Below are positions 14,808 to 35,483 of a DNA stretch of 36,192 bases, one piece after another (the first letter of the stretch is position 1; each line of letters starts with the position of its first letter). The notes under the pieces were generated by a model, which saw only the letters and a list, made by a program, of their open reading frames with translations, made no database searches and was not told the origin of the DNA. The stretch comes from Gammaproteobacteria bacterium (GTDB taxonomy: Bacteria; Pseudomonadota; Gammaproteobacteria; SG8-11): positions 1 to 36,192 of the forward strand of contig JAHECY010000035.1 of assembly GCA_024641505.1 (NCBI GenBank). The letters are read 5' to 3'. The translations under genes were made by a program, and so were the position numbers.

Positions 14808-15205
14808 GGTACCACGCCCCCTCCCGCCATACCTGGTGTTCAATGTCGGGTGCGTATTACGATCCGGCTGTTGATCCATGCGCGATAAAAGCCGACGTGC
14901 TAAACACACCCCGCATGGGTGGAACATAACGACGGGTGACGCGAATATTTGTTACATCGGGCTTGCCCTGCTTTATATATAGCGTGGTTGTAGTTCTTTC
15001 TTTGGAAGCATATCTTTTGTCGGGTTAAGCTCGGCGATTCCTAGCCGATAAAATCTCTGCATAACCCATGAACGCCGCCCGGCGTTGATGACGCTTTGGG
15101 CTCATGTAAAGGCGCCTAAGCAGTGCCATAATATTTCAGTCCGTATTGTATGCCGTGATAAGAAGCGCGTGCTGCATGCGGGTATATTTGGAAAGTCATC
15201 CGTCG
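14808..15205. other. intergenic region with degenerate repeat and a palindrome
   Basis: About 400 bases without a credible gene. It contains a decayed copy of the GGTGCG repeat (14849-14865) and a perfect 16-base palindrome-type hairpin AACGCCGCCCGGCGTT (15071-15086). An AT-rich stretch TTTATATATAG near 14971-14981 could be part of a promoter for the gene at 15206. Confidence 0.5.
14849..14865. repeat. degenerate copy of the GGTGCG palindrome
   Basis: GGTGCGTATTACGATCC keeps the left arm of the repeat, but the right arm has GAT where the intact copies have GCA. It is preceded by GTCG in place of GTAG, so both the palindrome and the proposed IS110 target site are damaged here. Confidence 0.7.
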
Positions 15206-25100: not shown

Positions 25101-27719
25101 GGCGATGGTGCCAATGCCCTGTCGTTTTTCACCGACAAAAAAATCTATCAAGTCGGTGAGGTTGCCCAAATTCAGTTGCCGGAAGCCACGCAAGGGCGCG
25201 CCCTGTTCACGGTGGAAACCGCCAGTCGTATTCTCAAGCAGGAATGGGTGGTGTTCGAAAAAGGCAAGGCGCCGCGTCTGGCCCTGCCGGTCACTATGGA
25301 CATGAGTCCCACCGCTTATCTGCATATTTCCCTATTGCAGCCGCACGGCGGACGTGACAATGACCGGCCACTGCGCATGTATGGCATCACCCCGATCACC
25401 GTCGAGGATGCGGCCACTCATCTGGCGCCGGTGATCAACGCGGCCAGTGAATGGCGCCCCAATCAACCAGTGAGCGTGGACGTGCATGAAGCCGGGGGCA
25501 AGGCCATGACCTATACCCTGGCGGTCGTCGACGAAGGCTTGCTGGGCCTGACGTCCTTCCGGACACCGGATTTACACCAGGAGTTCTATCGCAAAGAAGC
25601 CTTGGGTATCGCCACCTGGGATTTGTTCGACGAGGTGGCCGGTGCCTACAGTGGTGAATTGCAGAACCTGCTGGCCCTGGGCGGCGGTGATGCGGCGGAT
25701 GCCGCTGACGGTGCGCGTCGCAAGAAACGTTTTCCGCCGGTAATTCGTTTTCTGGGACCGTTTTCCCTGGCGGCCGGTGCTACCAACACCCATAACTTTG
25801 CTTTGCCGCAATACCTGGGGGCGGTGCGCGTGATGGTGGTGGCGGGGCATAAGGGTGCCTTCGGTTCGGCCGAGACTTCGGTGTTTGTGCGTGAACCTCT
25901 GTCCTTGCTGGCTACGGTACCGCGGGTGCTGGGGCCGGGCGAGACCGTGACCGTGCCGCTGAATCTGTTCGTCATGGATGAATCCATCCACGAGGTCAAG
26001 GTGCAAGTGACCGCCGATGAGCATTTCGTGCAGGGGTTCACGCAACCGGTGCCGGTGCATTTCGACCAGCCGGGCGACAAGATCGGCTTCGTGACATTAC
26101 AAGTGGCGGCGGGCACCGGCAAAGGTACGCTTAAAATCAGTGCGCAGGGCGGCAAGTTCAGCACCGCCACGGAAGTCAATCTGGACATTCGCAGCCCCAA
26201 TATTCTCAGTACGCGCCTGACCCGCGCGGTGATCGAGCCGGGGAAGGACTGGAACGCCACGATCATGCCCCATGGTTTGCCGGGAACGAATGCGATGATG
26301 GTGGAAAGCTCCCTGGCGCCGCCATTGAATCTGGAGAGTCGTCTGCAATATTTGATTCGCTATCCTCACGGCTGTCTGGAGCAGGTGACGTCGGCGGTTT
26401 TTCCGCAGTTGTATCTTGATCGCTTAGTGAAATTGGACAAGGACGATCAAGGCAAAGTGGATGCGCATGTCAACGCCGCTATCGATCGCCTGCGGCAGTT
26501 TCAAGCGGCAAACGGCGCGTTTACTTATTGGCCGGGACAGGTAGACATTAATGAGTGGGCCACCAACTATGCCGGCCATTTTCTGGTGGCGGCGCAGACC
26601 AAAGGGTATCAGGTGCCCGCGGAAATGATGCAGGCATGGTTGGGTTACCAGCAGTCGCGTGCGCAAAGCTGGGTGGCCGGCAGCGGTACGCCGCAATTGA
26701 ATCAGGTATATCGCTTGTATACCCTGGCACTGGTGGGGCAGGCGTCGGTGGCGGCCATGAACCGATTACGCGAGTCCTCTCAATTGAGCAATGTGGCGCG
26801 TTGGCAACTGGCGGCGGCCTATCACCTGGCGGGTATGCCCGAAGCCGCCGCGGACATCACCCGCGGTCGTGATCTGAGCGTCGCCGACTATAACGGCGTC
26901 GATGATACTTTTGGCTCCGCGTTGCGCGATCAGGCGATTATACTGGAAAGTCTCGCGGTGCAGCAGCGCCTGGTGGAAGGCAAGACCCTGGCGGAGGATA
27001 TCGCGCGTGCTTTGGCCACGGAGCGTTGGTTCAGTACTCAGTCAGTGGCATACAGTCTGTTGGCGCTGAGCCGTTTTCTGGGGGATCAGGCGCAGGCGGC
27101 TTCGTTTCGTTATGAGCTGCGCCGCAACGGCGCCACCGCCCAGCCGGTAAATGCAGACGCCATCGTCCATCACTATACGCTGCGGGAAATGGCGCCTTCC
27201 GGAGAGCGACTGGCCATCAGTAACAAGTCGCCGGCGCCTTTGTACGTCACGGTCTATGCAAGTGGCATCCCCATGGCAGGTGATGAACGTGCCGCCAGCG
27301 AAGGTTTGGCGCTGGATGTAAGCTACCGCTCCGAAGGTGGTGGCGCCTTGGCGGTGCCAAAAATAGCCCAGGGGACGAGTTTCACCGCGCTGGTTACCGT
27401 GCGCAATACCACGGATCGGGCCTTGAATAATCTGGCGTTGACACAGGTCGTTCCTCCCGGCTGGGAGATCGGTAACGAGCGTCTGGGCGATGCGGCCGCG
27501 GTAAATGTCGGTGATGTGGATTACCAGGATATACGTGATGATCGGGTATTGAGCTACTTCCCGTTGGCGGCGGGGGCGAGCCGCACATTCAAGGTGCGAC
27601 TCACGGCCACTTATCTGGGCCGGTACTATCTGCCGGGAGTTCATGTCGAGGCCATGTATGAAGCTGATAAATTTGCCCATAGCCAAGGCCAGTGGGTGGA
27701 AGTGGTACGCGCACCTTAA
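22158..27719 (+). CDS. alpha-2-macroglobulin-family lipoprotein (YfhM-like)
   Basis: 1853 residues from ATG 22158, chosen because GGGGGG lies 6 bases upstream and the N-terminus then becomes a lipoprotein signal with lipobox LLAAC (C23). The chain has the expected macroglobulin architecture. Repeated beta domains lead to KGYIYGERGVWRPGDDIHLTF in the MG2-like part. The thioester motif GCLEQ has its Cys at C1406, followed by alpha-helical thioester-domain sequence (AIDRLRQFQAANGAFTYWP) and a C-terminal receptor-like domain. Bacterial homologues are anchored in the periplasm and trap attacking proteases through the reactive thioester. Its partner is the PBP1C gene that overlaps its 3' end. Residues after C23 are KDD, consistent with lipoylated anchoring but not decisive for the membrane leaflet. 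Confidence 0.95.
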   Translation: MGERRGARVICLMVLVASLLAACGKDDGVDNAGVDVRGMDPWAPYLSHHTSGLVSRQAPLRVVFLVDVATSEDIGKAADAVLRIEPALPGITTFVSTKEIVLTPEHELTPGQNYSVELLAGKLAGIPHELAPYRFTISVIRQAFAINIEKLASSAAGKVFNVTGTLATADSADNAAVEAVVQAQYLGKEQVLVWRHNSNHRDHEFTINGLQRQVQAADLLLKYQGAGIGVNDSGEQKLTIPALGQFMVAHIRAIQQDRQYVLVELSDPVSTSQDVSGLVSLEGVGSTVERQANSLRIYPDSGVQGKTNVVIDAGLRNKQGQQLGKTVTQQVFFSSQQPQVRFVGNGVILPSNPVLSIPVEAINVHSLQVTAFRVFDDNVGQFLQQNKLGGDYELQRVGRYLWRKTIELPASEVDKWTRYELDATALLKESPGSLFRLTLSINRGNALLSCSEQDNAVTVRKEPAPASQDDENSQESSGWDFIAQYYGEDYDRLWKDRANPCKDAYYDYADGVQAHRNFMASNIGIITKRNDNNDIRIITTDLASAKPLPGVALSLYNFQQQVIGKVTTDSDGFAAIVTPGTPYYVIATKGSDRGYLKLSGGSKLAVSHFDVGGESVSAGIKGYIYGERGVWRPGDDIHLTFVMYDKDDRLPDQHPVTVHLVNPKGQVMQSMTNARPVDDFYVFTLRTAEDAPTGTWEARVLVGGSTFIRKLKIETVKPNRLKIDMDLGAERLALAHMPVQGSLFAQWLHGATAADLKAEVRVKLRPTATRFTTFTDFSFDDPAREFSADEQLLFEDTLDSTGNVKFKADIQVDRATAPGRLKAFFDLKVFEPGGDFSISTSNKEFDPFDAYVGIKPPAGDAARNMLLTDTKHKVQIATVDPQGNALSRSQIRMRIYKLDWKWWWDKSGESLAQYASADYSTALQEGVIATKDGRGEWEFEIKYPDWGRYLLRACDLDGEHCSGGIVYIDWPGWAGREKEQSGDGANALSFFTDKKIYQVGEVAQIQLPEATQGRALFTVETASRILKQEWVVFEKGKAPRLALPVTMDMSPTAYLHISLLQPHGGRDNDRPLRMYGITPITVEDAATHLAPVINAASEWRPNQPVSVDVHEAGGKAMTYTLAVVDEGLLGLTSFRTPDLHQEFYRKEALGIATWDLFDEVAGAYSGELQNLLALGGGDAADAADGARRKKRFPPVIRFLGPFSLAAGATNTHNFALPQYLGAVRVMVVAGHKGAFGSAETSVFVREPLSLLATVPRVLGPGETVTVPLNLFVMDESIHEVKVQVTADEHFVQGFTQPVPVHFDQPGDKIGFVTLQVAAGTGKGTLKISAQGGKFSTATEVNLDIRSPNILSTRLTRAVIEPGKDWNATIMPHGLPGTNAMMVESSLAPPLNLESRLQYLIRYPHGCLEQVTSAVFPQLYLDRLVKLDKDDQGKVDAHVNAAIDRLRQFQAANGAFTYWPGQVDINEWATNYAGHFLVAAQTKGYQVPAEMMQAWLGYQQSRAQSWVAGSGTPQLNQVYRLYTLALVGQASVAAMNRLRESSQLSNVARWQLAAAYHLAGMPEAAADITRGRDLSVADYNGVDDTFGSALRDQAIILESLAVQQRLVEGKTLAEDIARALATERWFSTQSVAYSLLALSRFLGDQAQAASFRYELRRNGATAQPVNADAIVHHYTLREMAPSGERLAISNKSPAPLYVTVYASGIPMAGDERAASEGLALDVSYRSEGGGALAVPKIAQGTSFTALVTVRNTTDRALNNLALTQVVPPGWEIGNERLGDAAAVNVGDVDYQDIRDDRVLSYFPLAAGASRTFKVRLTATYLGRYYLPGVHVEAMYEADKFAHSQGQWVEVVRAP

Positions 27720-30084
27720 GCGTTACCGTACCCGATGGGCGCTGGTCGGCATGGGCTTGCTCATGCTGTGGGTGGGCAATGCATTCTGGCGTTGCCTGCC
27801 GGCGCCATTGTTCAGCGAACCGCCGGCCGCGTTATTGCTGGATCGCGCCGGGGGTGTGCTGGCGGCGCGCATTGCCGCGGATGAGCAATGGCGGTTTAAC
27901 GGTAACGGCGTGATTCCGGAAAAGTACCGGCGTGCCGTGATTCAATTTGAGGACCGGCGCTTTGCCTATCATCCCGGTGTCGACCCGCTGGCCGTGGCGC
28001 GCGCGCTGCGCCAAAACTTCAATCATTCCGGTATCGTCAGCGGTGCCAGTACCTTGAGCATGCAGGTGATTCGCCTGAGTCGCCGCGGTGTACCCCGCAG
28101 TTACCGCGAGAAGCTGATCGAGATGGTGCAGGCGCTGCGCCTGGAGCTGCGTTACAGTAAAGATGAAATCTTCGCCCTGTATGCGGGCCATGCGCCGTTC
28201 GGCGGCAACATTGTGGGTTTGGAAGCGGCAAGCCGCCGATATTTTAGCCGACCGCCGTCACAATTGTCGTGGTCGGAAGCCAGTCTGCTGGCGGTATTGC
28301 CCAACAATCCGGCGCTGTTGCATCCAGGTCGGGGGCGGATCGCCCTGCAAGCCAAGCGCGACCGACTGTTACACCGTCTGCAGAGCGCGGGTCTATTGTC
28401 GGCGCTGGACCTGCGTCTGGCGCTGGCGGAACCGTTGCCGGCGAGACCGCCGCCGCTGCCCATGCATGCCCCCCATCTGCTCGACACCTTGATCCAGCAA
28501 AAGGGCGGGCCGGGTGTATTCGAATCAACCGTGGACGGTGATCTGCAACAAGCGCTCAATGCCATCGCCGGCCGTCATGGCCGGCGCTTGCAGGCCATGG
28601 GCGTGAATAACCTGGCGTTGCTGGTTCTGGACAACCAACGCTCCGAGGTATTGGCCTATTTGGGGAATTTGCCGGAGCAAGGTGTTGCGGAGCAGGGGCG
28701 TGCCGTGGACATCGTGCAACGTGCGCGCAGTACCGGTAGTCTGCTTAAGCCGTTTCTGTATGCGCTGATGTTACAGCACGGGGAGATCCTGCCCACGACC
28801 CTGGTGCCGGACTTGCCGACCCGCTACGGGGGCTATATGCCGGAAAATTATGATCACGCCTATCGAGGCGCGGTACCGGCGCGGCAGGCCCTGGCCCGTT
28901 CCCTCAATGTGCCCGCGGTGCGCATGCTGCAGCAATATGGGGTGGGTAGATTTTATGACGGCCTGCGTGATCTGGGGCTGACAACCTTGGCGCGCGCGCC
29001 CGATGATTACGGTTTGACATTGATCCTGGGTGGCGCGGAAGGCACGTTGTGGGAGCTCACCGCGGCTTATGGCAACCTGACGCGGCGGGCGCGGGCGGTA
29101 CCGGCGTTGCGGCCAACCATGCTGCGCGCGAACGCCTTGACCGTACAGCACGCAGCCCCGGGGACTTTGACTGGCATTATCGGTCCGGGTGCCGCCTGGT
29201 TGACTTTGGATGCCTTGCTGGAGGTGGCGCGGCCGGACACGGAACAATTCTGGCGGCAATTCACCGGCCAGCGCCCGATTGCCTGGAAAACCGGCACCAG
29301 TTACGGTTTACGGGACGCCTGGGCGATCGGTAGCGATGCGCGTTACACGGTTGGCGTGTGGGCGGGTAATGCGAGCGGCGAGGGGCGCGCCGGACTCACC
29401 GGCATCAATGCCGCGGCGCCCGTGTTGTTCGATGTGTTTAATCGCTTGCCGGCCGCGGATTGGGTGTCCAGACCGGAGGCGGATTTGAAGTCCGTAACCG
29501 TCTGCGCGCAAGACGGCTATCTGGCCAACGATTTGTGCGCGACGGAGCAACAGTGGGCGCCGCGCGACAGTTTTTTTAAACGCCAGACACCGCATTTCCA
29601 TCTGGTGCATCTGGATTACAGCGCCCGGTATCAGGTACACAGTCAGTGCGCCGCTACCGCCGATATGCGGCATGTACCGTGGTTCGAGTTGCCGGCGGGC
29701 CAAGCGTTTTTCTATCGACGGCAGCACGGTAATTACCATGCGCCGCCGCCCTATCGTGCCGACTGCCTCGGAGCTCTGGCGGGGCGCGCCGGGGATAATC
29801 CTATCGATTTGCTGTATCCCACGGCGTATACGCGGCTGTATATTCCTCGCGACCTGGCCGGCGTGCGCAGCCGCACCGTCTTTAGGGCGGCGCATCGTGA
29901 CGCGCGGGCGATTCTGTACTGGCATCTCGACGATGTGTATCTCGGCGCCACCGATACGTTCCATGAGCTGGCGCTGGACATCACTCCCGGCGCGCACCGC
30001 CTGACCTTGGTCGACGGTGCCGGCAACCGCTTGGTACGGTCATTTCAGGTGTTGGGGATCACGCAAGACCCAGAGGCGCTGTAG
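27658..30084 (+). CDS. pbpC: penicillin-binding protein 1C
   Basis: About 808 residues. The N-terminal membrane anchor (WALVGMGLLMLWVGNAFW) is followed by a family-51 transglycosylase domain with the catalytic Glu in FEDRRF (E98). The transpeptidase domain has STGSLLKP (S361, K364), SLN in ARSLNVPAV and KTGTS (K544-S548). A C-terminal PBP1C-specific domain follows (from about 620). It builds and cross-links peptidoglycan and is thought to repair damage where the neighbouring macroglobulin acts. The start is uncertain: ATG 27658 has GAGG six bases upstream and overlaps the macroglobulin gene by 62 bases; ATG 27643 is the alternative. The stop TAG (30082-30084) lies inside the repeat end used by the IS110 insertion, and the reading frame is intact. 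Confidence 0.94.
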   Translation: MKLINLPIAKASGWKWYAHLKRYRTRWALVGMGLLMLWVGNAFWRCLPAPLFSEPPAALLLDRAGGVLAARIAADEQWRFNGNGVIPEKYRRAVIQFEDRRFAYHPGVDPLAVARALRQNFNHSGIVSGASTLSMQVIRLSRRGVPRSYREKLIEMVQALRLELRYSKDEIFALYAGHAPFGGNIVGLEAASRRYFSRPPSQLSWSEASLLAVLPNNPALLHPGRGRIALQAKRDRLLHRLQSAGLLSALDLRLALAEPLPARPPPLPMHAPHLLDTLIQQKGGPGVFESTVDGDLQQALNAIAGRHGRRLQAMGVNNLALLVLDNQRSEVLAYLGNLPEQGVAEQGRAVDIVQRARSTGSLLKPFLYALMLQHGEILPTTLVPDLPTRYGGYMPENYDHAYRGAVPARQALARSLNVPAVRMLQQYGVGRFYDGLRDLGLTTLARAPDDYGLTLILGGAEGTLWELTAAYGNLTRRARAVPALRPTMLRANALTVQHAAPGTLTGIIGPGAAWLTLDALLEVARPDTEQFWRQFTGQRPIAWKTGTSYGLRDAWAIGSDARYTVGVWAGNASGEGRAGLTGINAAAPVLFDVFNRLPAADWVSRPEADLKSVTVCAQDGYLANDLCATEQQWAPRDSFFKRQTPHFHLVHLDYSARYQVHSQCAATADMRHVPWFELPAGQAFFYRRQHGNYHAPPPYRADCLGALAGRAGDNPIDLLYPTAYTRLYIPRDLAGVRSRTVFRAAHRDARAILYWHLDDVYLGATDTFHELALDITPGAHRLTLVDGAGNRLVRSFQVLGITQDPEAL

Positions 30085-30097
30085 ATACTGTCTTGCC

Positions 30098-30103
30098 GCT
30101 CAA
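30098..30103 (-). promoter_or_regulatory. possible -35 half of a junction promoter
   Basis: TTGAGC on the minus strand overlaps the transposase stop. If the element circularises at the CT core, it would lie 15 bases before TATATC from the left end (31309-31304). Such a junction promoter is known for IS110 circles and would drive bridge RNA and transposase only from the excised form. The match to sigma-70 consensus is partial (4/6 and 4/6, short spacer). Confidence 0.35.
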
Positions 30104-31062
30104 GAAGCAAGTCCTAATTTTGGGTCAAAAGGCAGTCCGGATTTAAGGACGCCGTAGACGATATGTAAGAGCTTGCGCATGGCGGCACAAACGATGGCTT
30201 TGCCGTGTTTACCGTTGGCCTTGAGGCGCAGGCAAAAGGGGCGAATGACGGGGTTATGCCGCCATGCCACGAGCGCTGGCATATAGAGCAGTTTGCGTAA
30301 CAAAGAATCGCCGGTTTTGGATAAGCGGGCACGCCCTACCAAGGTCCCTGATTCACGCAAGGCGGGGTTCAAACCGGTAAAGGCGATAATTTGCTTAATG
30401 TGCTGGAAGCGGTTGATATTGCCCAATAAGGCTAGCAGGGCGGCGCTGGTGGACTGGCCGATGCCGGGGATGGTTTCTAACAATTTGCTCTGGCGTTTGA
30501 GGTCTGGATCGTTGTCGATGTGTTGACGGATAGCCGCCTTGACTTGCTCGATCTGTTCGGCCAGCGTGTTCAGCATCTGCTCAAGGGAGCTGACGATGGC
30601 GGAATTGGCGACCAGCAGCCGGTTTTTTTCCATCTGCTGCATTTCCAGCAGGCTGTCGAGGCGGCGAACCAAGGCCTGCAGGGCGCGCACATTGGGCGCA
30701 GGGGCTTGCCACAAGGGCAGTGAATGGCCGGTTTGCGCACAGAAGCGGGCAATGAGTTTGGCATCGCCTCGGTCCGTCTTGGAGCGCGACAGCTCGCTTT
30801 TGGCAAAGGCGGCGATGCGCGCGGGATTGACTACGCTCAGACGCAAGTGATGATCGGAAAGAAAGTTGGCCAAGGAGTCACCGTAGACGCCGGTGGCCTC
30901 CATGCAAATGTGCGTGTCAGCAAGGGGTTGCAGCCAAGTAAGGAATTGCTCAAACCCCCGTGGATTGTTGCCGAAGGACTTGAACTTGTATTTGCCGCTG
31001 GGCAACAACGCAGCGACGTCGAACTTGTTTTTAGCGATATCAATACCGATACTGGTGAGCAT
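30100..31062 (-). CDS. IS110-family DEDD recombinase (transposase)
   Basis: 320 residues. The N-terminal RuvC-like DEDD domain has D8 (GIDIAKNKFD), E55 (CMEATG), D97 and D100 (KTDRGDAKLIA). A helical linker follows, then the C-terminal Transposase_20 domain with IPGIGQSTSAALLALLG and the candidate catalytic Ser S238 in ALRESGT. All catalytic positions are present and the frame is intact, so the enzyme is probably active. IS110 recombinases cut and join DNA at a 2-base core, guided in the IS621 type by an element-encoded bridge RNA. The start ATG 31062 lies just after GGGTTTCC. The stop lies 15 bases inside the right end of the element. Confidence 0.96.
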   Translation of the reverse strand: MLTSIGIDIAKNKFDVAALLPSGKYKFKSFGNNPRGFEQFLTWLQPLADTHICMEATGVYGDSLANFLSDHHLRLSVVNPARIAAFAKSELSRSKTDRGDAKLIARFCAQTGHSLPLWQAPAPNVRALQALVRRLDSLLEMQQMEKNRLLVANSAIVSSLEQMLNTLAEQIEQVKAAIRQHIDNDPDLKRQSKLLETIPGIGQSTSAALLALLGNINRFQHIKQIIAFTGLNPALRESGTLVGRARLSKTGDSLLRKLLYMPALVAWRHNPVIRPFCLRLKANGKHGKAIVCAAMRKLLHIVYGVLKSGLPFDPKLGLAS

Positions 31063-31121
31063 AGGAAACCCTGTTAAAATGATTGATGATGTCTGTCACG
31101 AGCAATCCGGTCGGGTTCAAC

Positions 31122-31165
31122 CTTATGCATACAGGCTCACGCCGCTGGCGGGCCTTAGATACTGT
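31122..31165 (-). other. donor-binding guides of the putative bridge RNA
   Basis: The left donor guide with core, ACAGTATCT (31165-31157), is identical to the right end of the element plus core (30091-30083). The right donor guide ATAAG (31126-31122) is the reverse complement of CTTAT, which is the core plus first bases at the left end (31311-31307). This is the order and polarity expected of an IS110-type donor loop. Confidence 0.72.
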
Positions 31166-31203
31166 ACGAACACAATGACTGGAAAGGCGGCAAGGGAGCC
31201 GAT

Positions 31204-31236
31204 CTACGTCGCTGGCTCCAGGGCCCAAGTGTGCGT
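31204..31236 (-). other. target-binding guides of the putative bridge RNA
   Basis: The left guide ACGCACACT (31236-31228, core CT at its end) matches the target top strand ACGCACCCT at 8 of 9 positions; the one mismatch is just before the core. The right guide GCGACGTAG (31212-31204) would pair with CTACGTCGC. The actual right target is CTACAGCGC, so 7 of 9 fit, including CTAC next to the crossover. The right guide lies in the loop of a GGAGCC/GGCTCC hairpin. Confidence 0.72.
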
Positions 31237-31311
31237 TCGACTTCCTCTTGCCGCTGCCCGATGATCAGTCGGGGATTTTCTCACTTGTCAGCGAGAGAAT
31301 CGAGATATAAG

Positions 31312-31407
31312 GGTGCGTATTACGCACCGCGTTGTTATTGTGCGATCAAGGCAACCATGCATGCGCTTCGATTCGGATAAAAAGCCGATGCGTAATACGC
31401 ACCCTAC
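31312..31407. repeat. composite palindromic repeat, unit 2 (split by the IS110 element)
   Basis: The left palindrome GGTGCGTATTACGCACC is at 31312-31328; its outer GTAG is now at 30081-30084 on the far side of the insertion sequence. The inverted right palindrome GATGCGTAATACGCACC is at 31387-31403, followed by CTAC. The 58 bases between are noncoding. Without the insertion the unit would be exactly 100 bases and would start at the pbpC stop codon. Confidence 0.85.
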
Positions 31408-31453: not shown

Positions 31454-31942
31454 TCACGCGCTTTCCTGAGCCTTCTCTCGAGGGATATGTTCCACGTAGA
31501 TATAGATCTGCGCTTTGAGGTCACCCAGCTGGTGTTGGATCAGCGGCAGCACCTCGTCCCATTGCAATCCACCCTTGCCGGCACCGATGCGTGGCATGCT
31601 GACTGAAGTCAATTTTTCTTTGGTGATGATTTTTTTCAAGGCATGCAAGGCATGATTGACATGAGCCACGGATGCTTTGCCGGTGCGGGTACCATGGCCG
31701 TAACCGCCTTCCTGGGTGAGCAGGTTGACGATCCACACGCGTTCCTGGTTTTTCCATAACCAGGCGTCACCCGGCTTGGGGTGTTGTACGTGGCACCAGT
31801 GGTGGAAGTCCTTGTGCATGATGGGAAAAACCTCACGCAAGGTTTTCGCCAGGCCGCCGTCCATAGGGTCGTTGGGAGCAACGCCGTGGGCGATGGCTTG
31901 GGTGGAGGTCAAAAGAATATCACCGCGAACTTCGTGAATCAT
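31454..31942 (-). CDS. macrodomain protein (ADP-ribose binding/hydrolase-like)
   Basis: 162 residues, a single macrodomain. The N-terminal strand HEVRGDILLT leads to AIAHGVAPNDPMDGGLAKTL, the ADP-ribose-binding region. A WIVNLLTQ strand is followed by SMPRIGAGKGGLQWDEVLPLI, the phosphate-binding GxGxGGLxW loop. Proteins of this type bind ADP-ribose, and some remove it from proteins or DNA (TARG1/DarG type). The residues suggest a TARG1-like subgroup, but activity is an inference. No DarT-like toxin gene is adjacent. It lies 46 bases beyond repeat unit 2 (31454 against 31407) and reads towards it. Confidence 0.85.
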   Translation of the reverse strand: MIHEVRGDILLTSTQAIAHGVAPNDPMDGGLAKTLREVFPIMHKDFHHWCHVQHPKPGDAWLWKNQERVWIVNLLTQEGGYGHGTRTGKASVAHVNHALHALKKIITKEKLTSVSMPRIGAGKGGLQWDEVLPLIQHQLGDLKAQIYIYVEHIPREKAQESA

Positions 31943-35340: not shown

Positions 35341-35483
35341 GTAGGGTGCGTATTACGCACCGTTTGTGCCGTTATTTCGGTGACGTGTTCAAGACCGTGG
35401 GCTGATGCGCAACACGCACCGCCCGCGCTGTTGCCTGGGTGGCCCACTGAAGATAACGCACCGGTGCGTTATATGCACCCTAC
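35341..35483. repeat. composite palindromic repeat, unit 3
   Basis: The left end is GTAG plus GGTGCGTATTACGCACC (core 35345-35361). A diverged inner copy GATGCGCAACACGCACC lies at 35404-35420. The inverted right end is GGTGCGTTATATGCACC (35463-35479), followed by CTAC. Total 143 bases between the tandem array and the 3' end of tex. Confidence 0.85.

Follow-up and report, generated by a model that had tools for sequence, protein, structure and literature searches.

What brings an insertion sequence (IS) to the head of a host repeat, and does the element carry the RNA programme that would send it there? The question is raised by a stretch of 36,192 nucleotides of gammaproteobacterial DNA (contig JAHECY010000035.1; hereafter the window, to which all positions refer unless another locus is named), in which an IS110-group element of about 1.23 kb interrupts one arm of a repetitive extragenic palindrome (REP). 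It is highly probable that the left end of this element encodes a bridge RNA directing insertion into REP heads. The element, its gene and its target are arranged as follows.

30083 to 31309, minus strand: insertion sequence of the IS110 group, made up of an interior of 1225 bp (30085-31309) and the CT core of the right end (30083-30084)
30100 to 31062, minus strand: IS110 recombinase, 320 amino acids, with RuvC-like DEDD and Transposase_20 domains (Pfam and structure alignment)
31310 to 31407, unstranded: target, an inverted pair of REP arms, AGGGTGCGTATTACGCACC ... GATGCGTAATACGCACCCTAC (inverted repeat I1), whose left arm had its GTAG head split by the insertion
30081 to 30084, unstranded: GTAG head severed from the REP, reading CTAC on the minus strand, where it takes in the CT core of the right end (empty-site reconstruction)

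The ends of the element are set by a CT core on both sides. Read on the minus strand, it is flanked on the left by ACGCACCCT (31318-31310, or ACGCACC-CT) and on the right by CTAC (30084-30081, or CT-AC). When the empty site is rebuilt from the flanks and a single CT, the REP arm GTAGGGTGCGTATTACGCACC is restored, with no longer target duplication; on the plus strand the rebuilt site reads ...CTGTAGGGTGCGTATTACGCACC..., a complete repeat arm whose partner is intact at 31387-31407. The non-coding left end upstream of the recombinase gene measures 247 nt (31063-31309), and 15 nt (30085-30099) remain between the stop codon and the right core. A long left end with a short right end characterizes the IS110 group, in which the long non-coding end lies upstream of the gene, and not the IS1111 group, where the reverse is found (PMC11208160). 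No pair of inverted repeats of at least 12 nt joining both element ends is present among those listed.

The recombinase matches PF01548 (3.7e-30) and PF02371 (1.4e-24), both above the cut-off, and aligns to the solved proteins of ISCro4 (9t56, E 1.9e-81) and IS621 (8wt6, E 8.7e-77). Its reading frame is open and all five catalytic residues are kept, D8, E55, D97, D100 and S238 lining up with D11, E60, D102, D105 and S241 of IS621 (residues as named in PMC11208158). Domains and catalytic serine, end layout, lack of long subterminal inverted repeats and CT cores all place the element in the IS110 group.

The interrupted repeat is abundant in its host. In the 4.78 Mb genome, TACGCACCCTAC occurs exactly 277 times and ACGCACCCTAC 285 times, as compared with 0 for a reversed-pattern control; across 13 other genomes, ACGCACCCTAC is found in 0-12 copies. 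The copies form inverted pairs with a GTAG head, and GTAG-headed REPs such as GTAGGGTGGGTCTTGACCCACC have been listed previously (PMC2817692). It is by this abundance, this head, the inverted pairs and the presence of a Y1 transposase match in the genome that the repeat is recognized as a REP.

The leader of the recombinase gene contains the following features.

31121 to 31309, minus strand: bridge RNA-coding left end, with 5' stem-loop, target-binding loop and donor-binding loop (covariance model R1)
31274 to 31301, minus strand: 5' stem-loop of the bridge RNA (predicted fold)
31247 to 31254, minus strand: 5' strand, GCGGCAAG, of the stem closing the target-binding loop (sequence and predicted fold)
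31228 to 31236, minus strand: left target guide ACGCACACT, agreeing with the target ACGCACCCT at 8 of 9 positions; the mismatch, at position 7, adjoins the core
31204 to 31207, minus strand: right target guide GTAG, pairing with CTAC at 4 of 4 positions
31202 to 31203, minus strand: AU following the right target guide, putative handshake guide (sequence; rule from PMC11208158)
31187 to 31194, minus strand: 3' strand, CTTGCCGC, of the stem closing the target-binding loop (sequence and predicted fold)
31157 to 31165, minus strand: left donor guide ACAGTATCT, the same sequence as that of the element's right end together with the core (9 of 9)
31122 to 31130, minus strand: right donor guide AT-GC-ATAAG (ATGCATAAG), with split 2+5 pairing to the left end CTTATAT (7 of 7)

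The initial annotation had proposed that the two target guides match the flanks, CT core included, and that they sit inside a loop closed by an 8-bp stem. Both target guides are found in the order and polarity that it gave, and the stem is present in the sequence as well as in the predicted fold, where it continues with additional pairs within the loop. A stem closing the target loop is predicted in most relatives, with differing sequences (for instance GCGGCGGGG/CCCCGCCGC in relative L096). Together with the putative handshake guide, the right target guide reads GUAGAU, every base of which can pair with the recombined junction ATCTAC; such handshake pairing was described for IS621 (PMC11208158), from which the split pattern of the right donor guide is also known (PMC11208160, PMC11208158).

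A covariance model trained on 11 relatives, the window being left out (R1), matches 31121-31309 with 123.2 bits (E 1.3e-33) over model positions 1-191 of 191. The match begins at the first base past the core and is the only one in the genome. Since RNAalifold gave just 10 consensus pairs, R1 is largely a sequence model. The leader is homologous in structure, with two internal loops; its target guides are complementary to the flanks and its donor guides to the two element ends. Rfam matches to sX15 and mir-586 (E 0.05-1.8) were dismissed as due to chance or derived from the REP hairpin.

A further argument comes from the covariation of the guides with the flanks. With the element in one copy, its own genome offers no further copies for a comparison of flanks, and no relatives were found within the same genus, family or order at E 1e-60. 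The comparison therefore bears on 18 elements, 17 relatives and that of the window. The left target guides agree with their own flanks at 112 of 126 non-core positions, whereas the mean under permutation is 49 and 112 was not reached once in 200,000 permutations; here as in the tests below, the permutations treat related elements as independent, without correction for kinship, a concern that is limited by the differing types of flank. For the right target guides, agreement extends to 35 of 36 positions (permuted mean 16.6). The bias of guides chosen by eye is removed when the best 9-mer is sought anywhere in the target-loop part: own flanks then score 146 of 162, the permutations having a mean of 114.5 and a maximum of 133. 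In this free-position test, the window's score of 8 is also reached by the flanks of L096 and L002, so that its individual evidence leans on the position of the match and on the other guides.

When the right guides are placed by the conserved AGAT that follows them, and not by the flank, the two core-adjacent flank bases match in 17 of 18 elements. Compensatory changes between guides and flanks, which the initial annotation had suggested looking for, were found on both sides of the core. On the right, GTAG faces CTAC, GCAG faces CTGC (L002), GGGAGAG faces CTCTCCC (L099), AACGTAG faces CTACGTT (L027) and GGGTCAG faces CTGACCC (L006, L008, L098, L104). The agreement of the left guide is weak in L006, L099, L104 and L106, and in three of these four the complementarity of the right guide is longer. 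Homologues with the same flanks but unrelated guides, which were to speak against homing, were looked for as well, and the opposite was observed: different flanks go with correspondingly different guides at the aligned position. The right donor guide follows the ends of the element in the same manner (96 of 105 pairs across 15 elements; permutation mean 80; 0 of 100,000 permutations). The idea of a functional programme for homing to the repeat is thus supported by the relatives; the production of the RNA and current mobility may be expected by analogy with the family.

In some relatives, the guide also corresponds to a repeat of the host. The sequence GCGTACCCTAC, for which L003 and L004 are programmed, is found 74 and 99 times in their own hosts and 60 times in that of L002, and 0 or 1 time in the other eight genomes searched, including that of the window. 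Similarly, GCCCACCCTAC, the programme of L005, has 46 copies in its own host, 11 in that of L007 and 0-5 elsewhere. With each of the three guide sequences for which whole genomes were counted, the matching REP variant is abundant in the element's own host and rare elsewhere. The guides GCGTACCCT and GCCCACCCT match repeats common in their own hosts, and a 400-kb sample of the L105 genome has ATCCACC (8) and ATCCGCC (5), the latter being how the L105 guide reads, among the heptamers most frequent ahead of CTAC. Tracking of host repeats is not universal, since in 400 kb sampled from the L096 genome the target of this element, TTGCGCCCTAC, does not figure among the sequences most often preceding CTAC. 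A second exception is L002, whose guide is GTGTGCCCT and which is inserted outside its host's 60-copy GCGTACCCTAC repeat. It may be, as a tentative proposal, that elements of this clade follow the REP families of their hosts. The constant GTAG head would be read by the right guide, and the left guide would be adjusted, lineage by lineage, to the palindrome arm found locally; the elements would in this way track the evolution of the repeats made by REP-associated tyrosine transposases (RAYTs). If so, each host would offer hundreds of probably harmless sites.

The only match to a Y1 (RAYT-type) transposase in the genome lies on contig C205 (locus L107, 491-817); at 25 bits, it is barely over the cut-off. 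Arrays of the same REP flank this gene (27-311 and 955-1151 of L107), which is possibly the source of the REPs. In the first of these arrays, REPs of the GGTGCGTAATACGCACC type are accompanied by some with a variant palindrome, GGTGCGTATGACGCACC, and either kind may end in ACGCACCCTAC. Within the window, other copies of the REP arm TACGCACCCTAC, exact or with one mismatch, lie at 2482-2493, 2636-2647, 2715-2726, 14845-14856, 35341-35352 and 35472-35483, and none of them is occupied by this element. At the insertion site, the severed GTAG provides the TAG stop of the upstream penicillin-binding protein gene (27643-30084). Owing to this overlap of head and stop codon, the REP starts at the very end of that gene. 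Beyond the target, a minus-strand open reading frame of 162 amino acids (31454-31942) has a Macro-domain match at 20.9 bits, against a Pfam cut-off of 22.

By analogy with IS621, for which the mechanism is established, it can be proposed that the element exits as a circle, whose joined ends would form a promoter transcribing the left end. The corresponding candidate is the following.

30098 to 30103, minus strand: candidate -35 box TTGAGC near the right core, spaced by 17 nt from TATCTC (31307-31302) when the element is circular and not otherwise

The bridge RNA would then bind the recombinase. Its donor-binding loop would pair with ACAGTAT-CT-TATAT at the junction of the circle, and its target-binding loop with ACGCACC-CT-AC, where a REP arm has its outer end. 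The recombinase would swap strands at the CT cores, and the element would thereby home to REPs of the host at their GTAG head. That the circle forms, that the RNA is expressed, that the reaction is catalysed and that the element is active at present is here presumed from the family.

Some observations weigh against such RNA-guided homing. No Rfam family reaches the gathering score on the leader. The element is present in only one copy despite 285 near-matching sites, which is compatible with a recent arrival or with a weak element. The left target guide has its mismatch next to the core, at position 7, which is A in the window (the target having C) and C in the guides of L096, L002, L003 and L004. 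Finally, the candidate circle-junction promoter appears weak, TTGAGC-17-TATCTC agreeing with the consensus at 7 of 12 positions as compared with 8-11 of 12 in most relatives.

The single copy, the A at position 7 where close relatives carry C, and the weak promoter would all be accounted for by a genuine bridge-RNA element that is now inactive or weakened, homing having been lost through drift of the guide and decay of the junction promoter. However, the recombinase keeps its open frame and its five catalytic residues, the donor guides are perfect, and IS621 inserts into its natural REP target despite one mismatch (PMC11208160). This last parallel is partial, because the IS621 mismatch is a tolerated G:T at position 4, whereas here an A stands opposite G at position 7. 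Such a weakening or loss, a refinement that overlaps with the preferred explanation, deserves to be taken seriously but is in our view rather improbable.

Alternatively, the recombinase might select REPs through protein recognition of the palindrome, the leader being a regulatory 5' untranslated region, in line with the small RNAs that regulate the ISPpu9 transposase. This is very improbable, as guides follow flanks even in relatives without a REP-like palindrome in the left flank (for example L008), and as compensating changes on both sides of the core are not expected from regulation, although both roles could coexist.

As regards chance, the 247-nt leader was submitted to 20,000 dinucleotide shuffles. 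A 9-mer with at most one mismatch to ACGCACCCT was found in 482 of them (2.4%), and the same 9-mer followed by GTAG 5-36 nt downstream in 31 (0.16%). The target match, which the initial annotation considered hard to obtain by chance, is therefore moderate evidence when taken by itself. An exact 9-nt left donor guide was obtained in 12 shuffles, and left and split right donor guides jointly in none. With the donor guides, the match to the leave-one-out model and the guide-flank covariation in 17 relatives, the assignment of the guides becomes firm. That a GC-rich leader should match its flanks by coincidence, as the target-guide figures alone might allow, is hardly credible given the aligned position of the match, the donor guides, the relatives' agreement with their own flanks and the free-position test, and was rejected.

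The reading of the element as bridge RNA-guided brings it close to IS621 (Choi et al., 2003, as cited; Durrant et al., 2024, PMC11208160; Hiraizumi et al., 2024, PMC11208158). Both have a left-end bridge RNA upstream of the recombinase gene, a CT core, target guides of 9 nt on the left and 4 nt on the right, a split right donor guide and a handshake AU, putative in the window. Both are inserted at the GTAG/CTAC end of a host REP, that of Escherichia coli in the case of IS621, with one natural mismatch between guide and target. In IS621, the guide is ATCGGGCCTAC and the natural REP target ATCAGGCCTAC, which accounts for 74.5% of insertion sites, the mismatch being G:T at position 4 (PMC11208160). 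Unlike IS621, the window element has a guide set for ACGCACCCTAC and not ATCAGGCCTAC, its mismatch is at position 7, its recombinase, though clearly homologous, is divergent, and its junction promoter is weaker. By sequence, the nearest solved recombinase is that of ISCro4 (PDB 9t56), with a near whole-length alignment; this is a different element, likened by its recombinase alone. Other REP-selecting elements with DEDD transposases, the IS110/IS1111 elements ISPa11, ISPpu9, ISPpu10 and ISRm19 (Tobes and Pareja, 2006, PMC1525189; Siddiquee et al., 2024, PMC11187229), also resemble that of the window. Among them, ISPa11, whose guide (seek) RNA has been studied, is of the IS1111 type with its non-coding region downstream of the gene, whereas that of the window element is upstream. 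RNA-guided choice of target and donor by IS110 elements (PMC11208160, PMC11187229), their targeting of REPs (PMC1525189; IS621) and the natural re-setting of guides (PMC11187229) have all been published. The element is thus a well-supported further example of the bridge-RNA system and does not define another kind of system. What it contributes is a natural REP-homing bridge RNA and a clean diagonal between guides and host repeats, with 285, 74-99 and 46 matching copies in the host and few in most other genomes searched. It thereby provides one case in which to ask how a core-adjacent mismatch might be tolerated and, with its relatives, a natural series in which the evolutionary re-setting of bridge-RNA guides can be studied.
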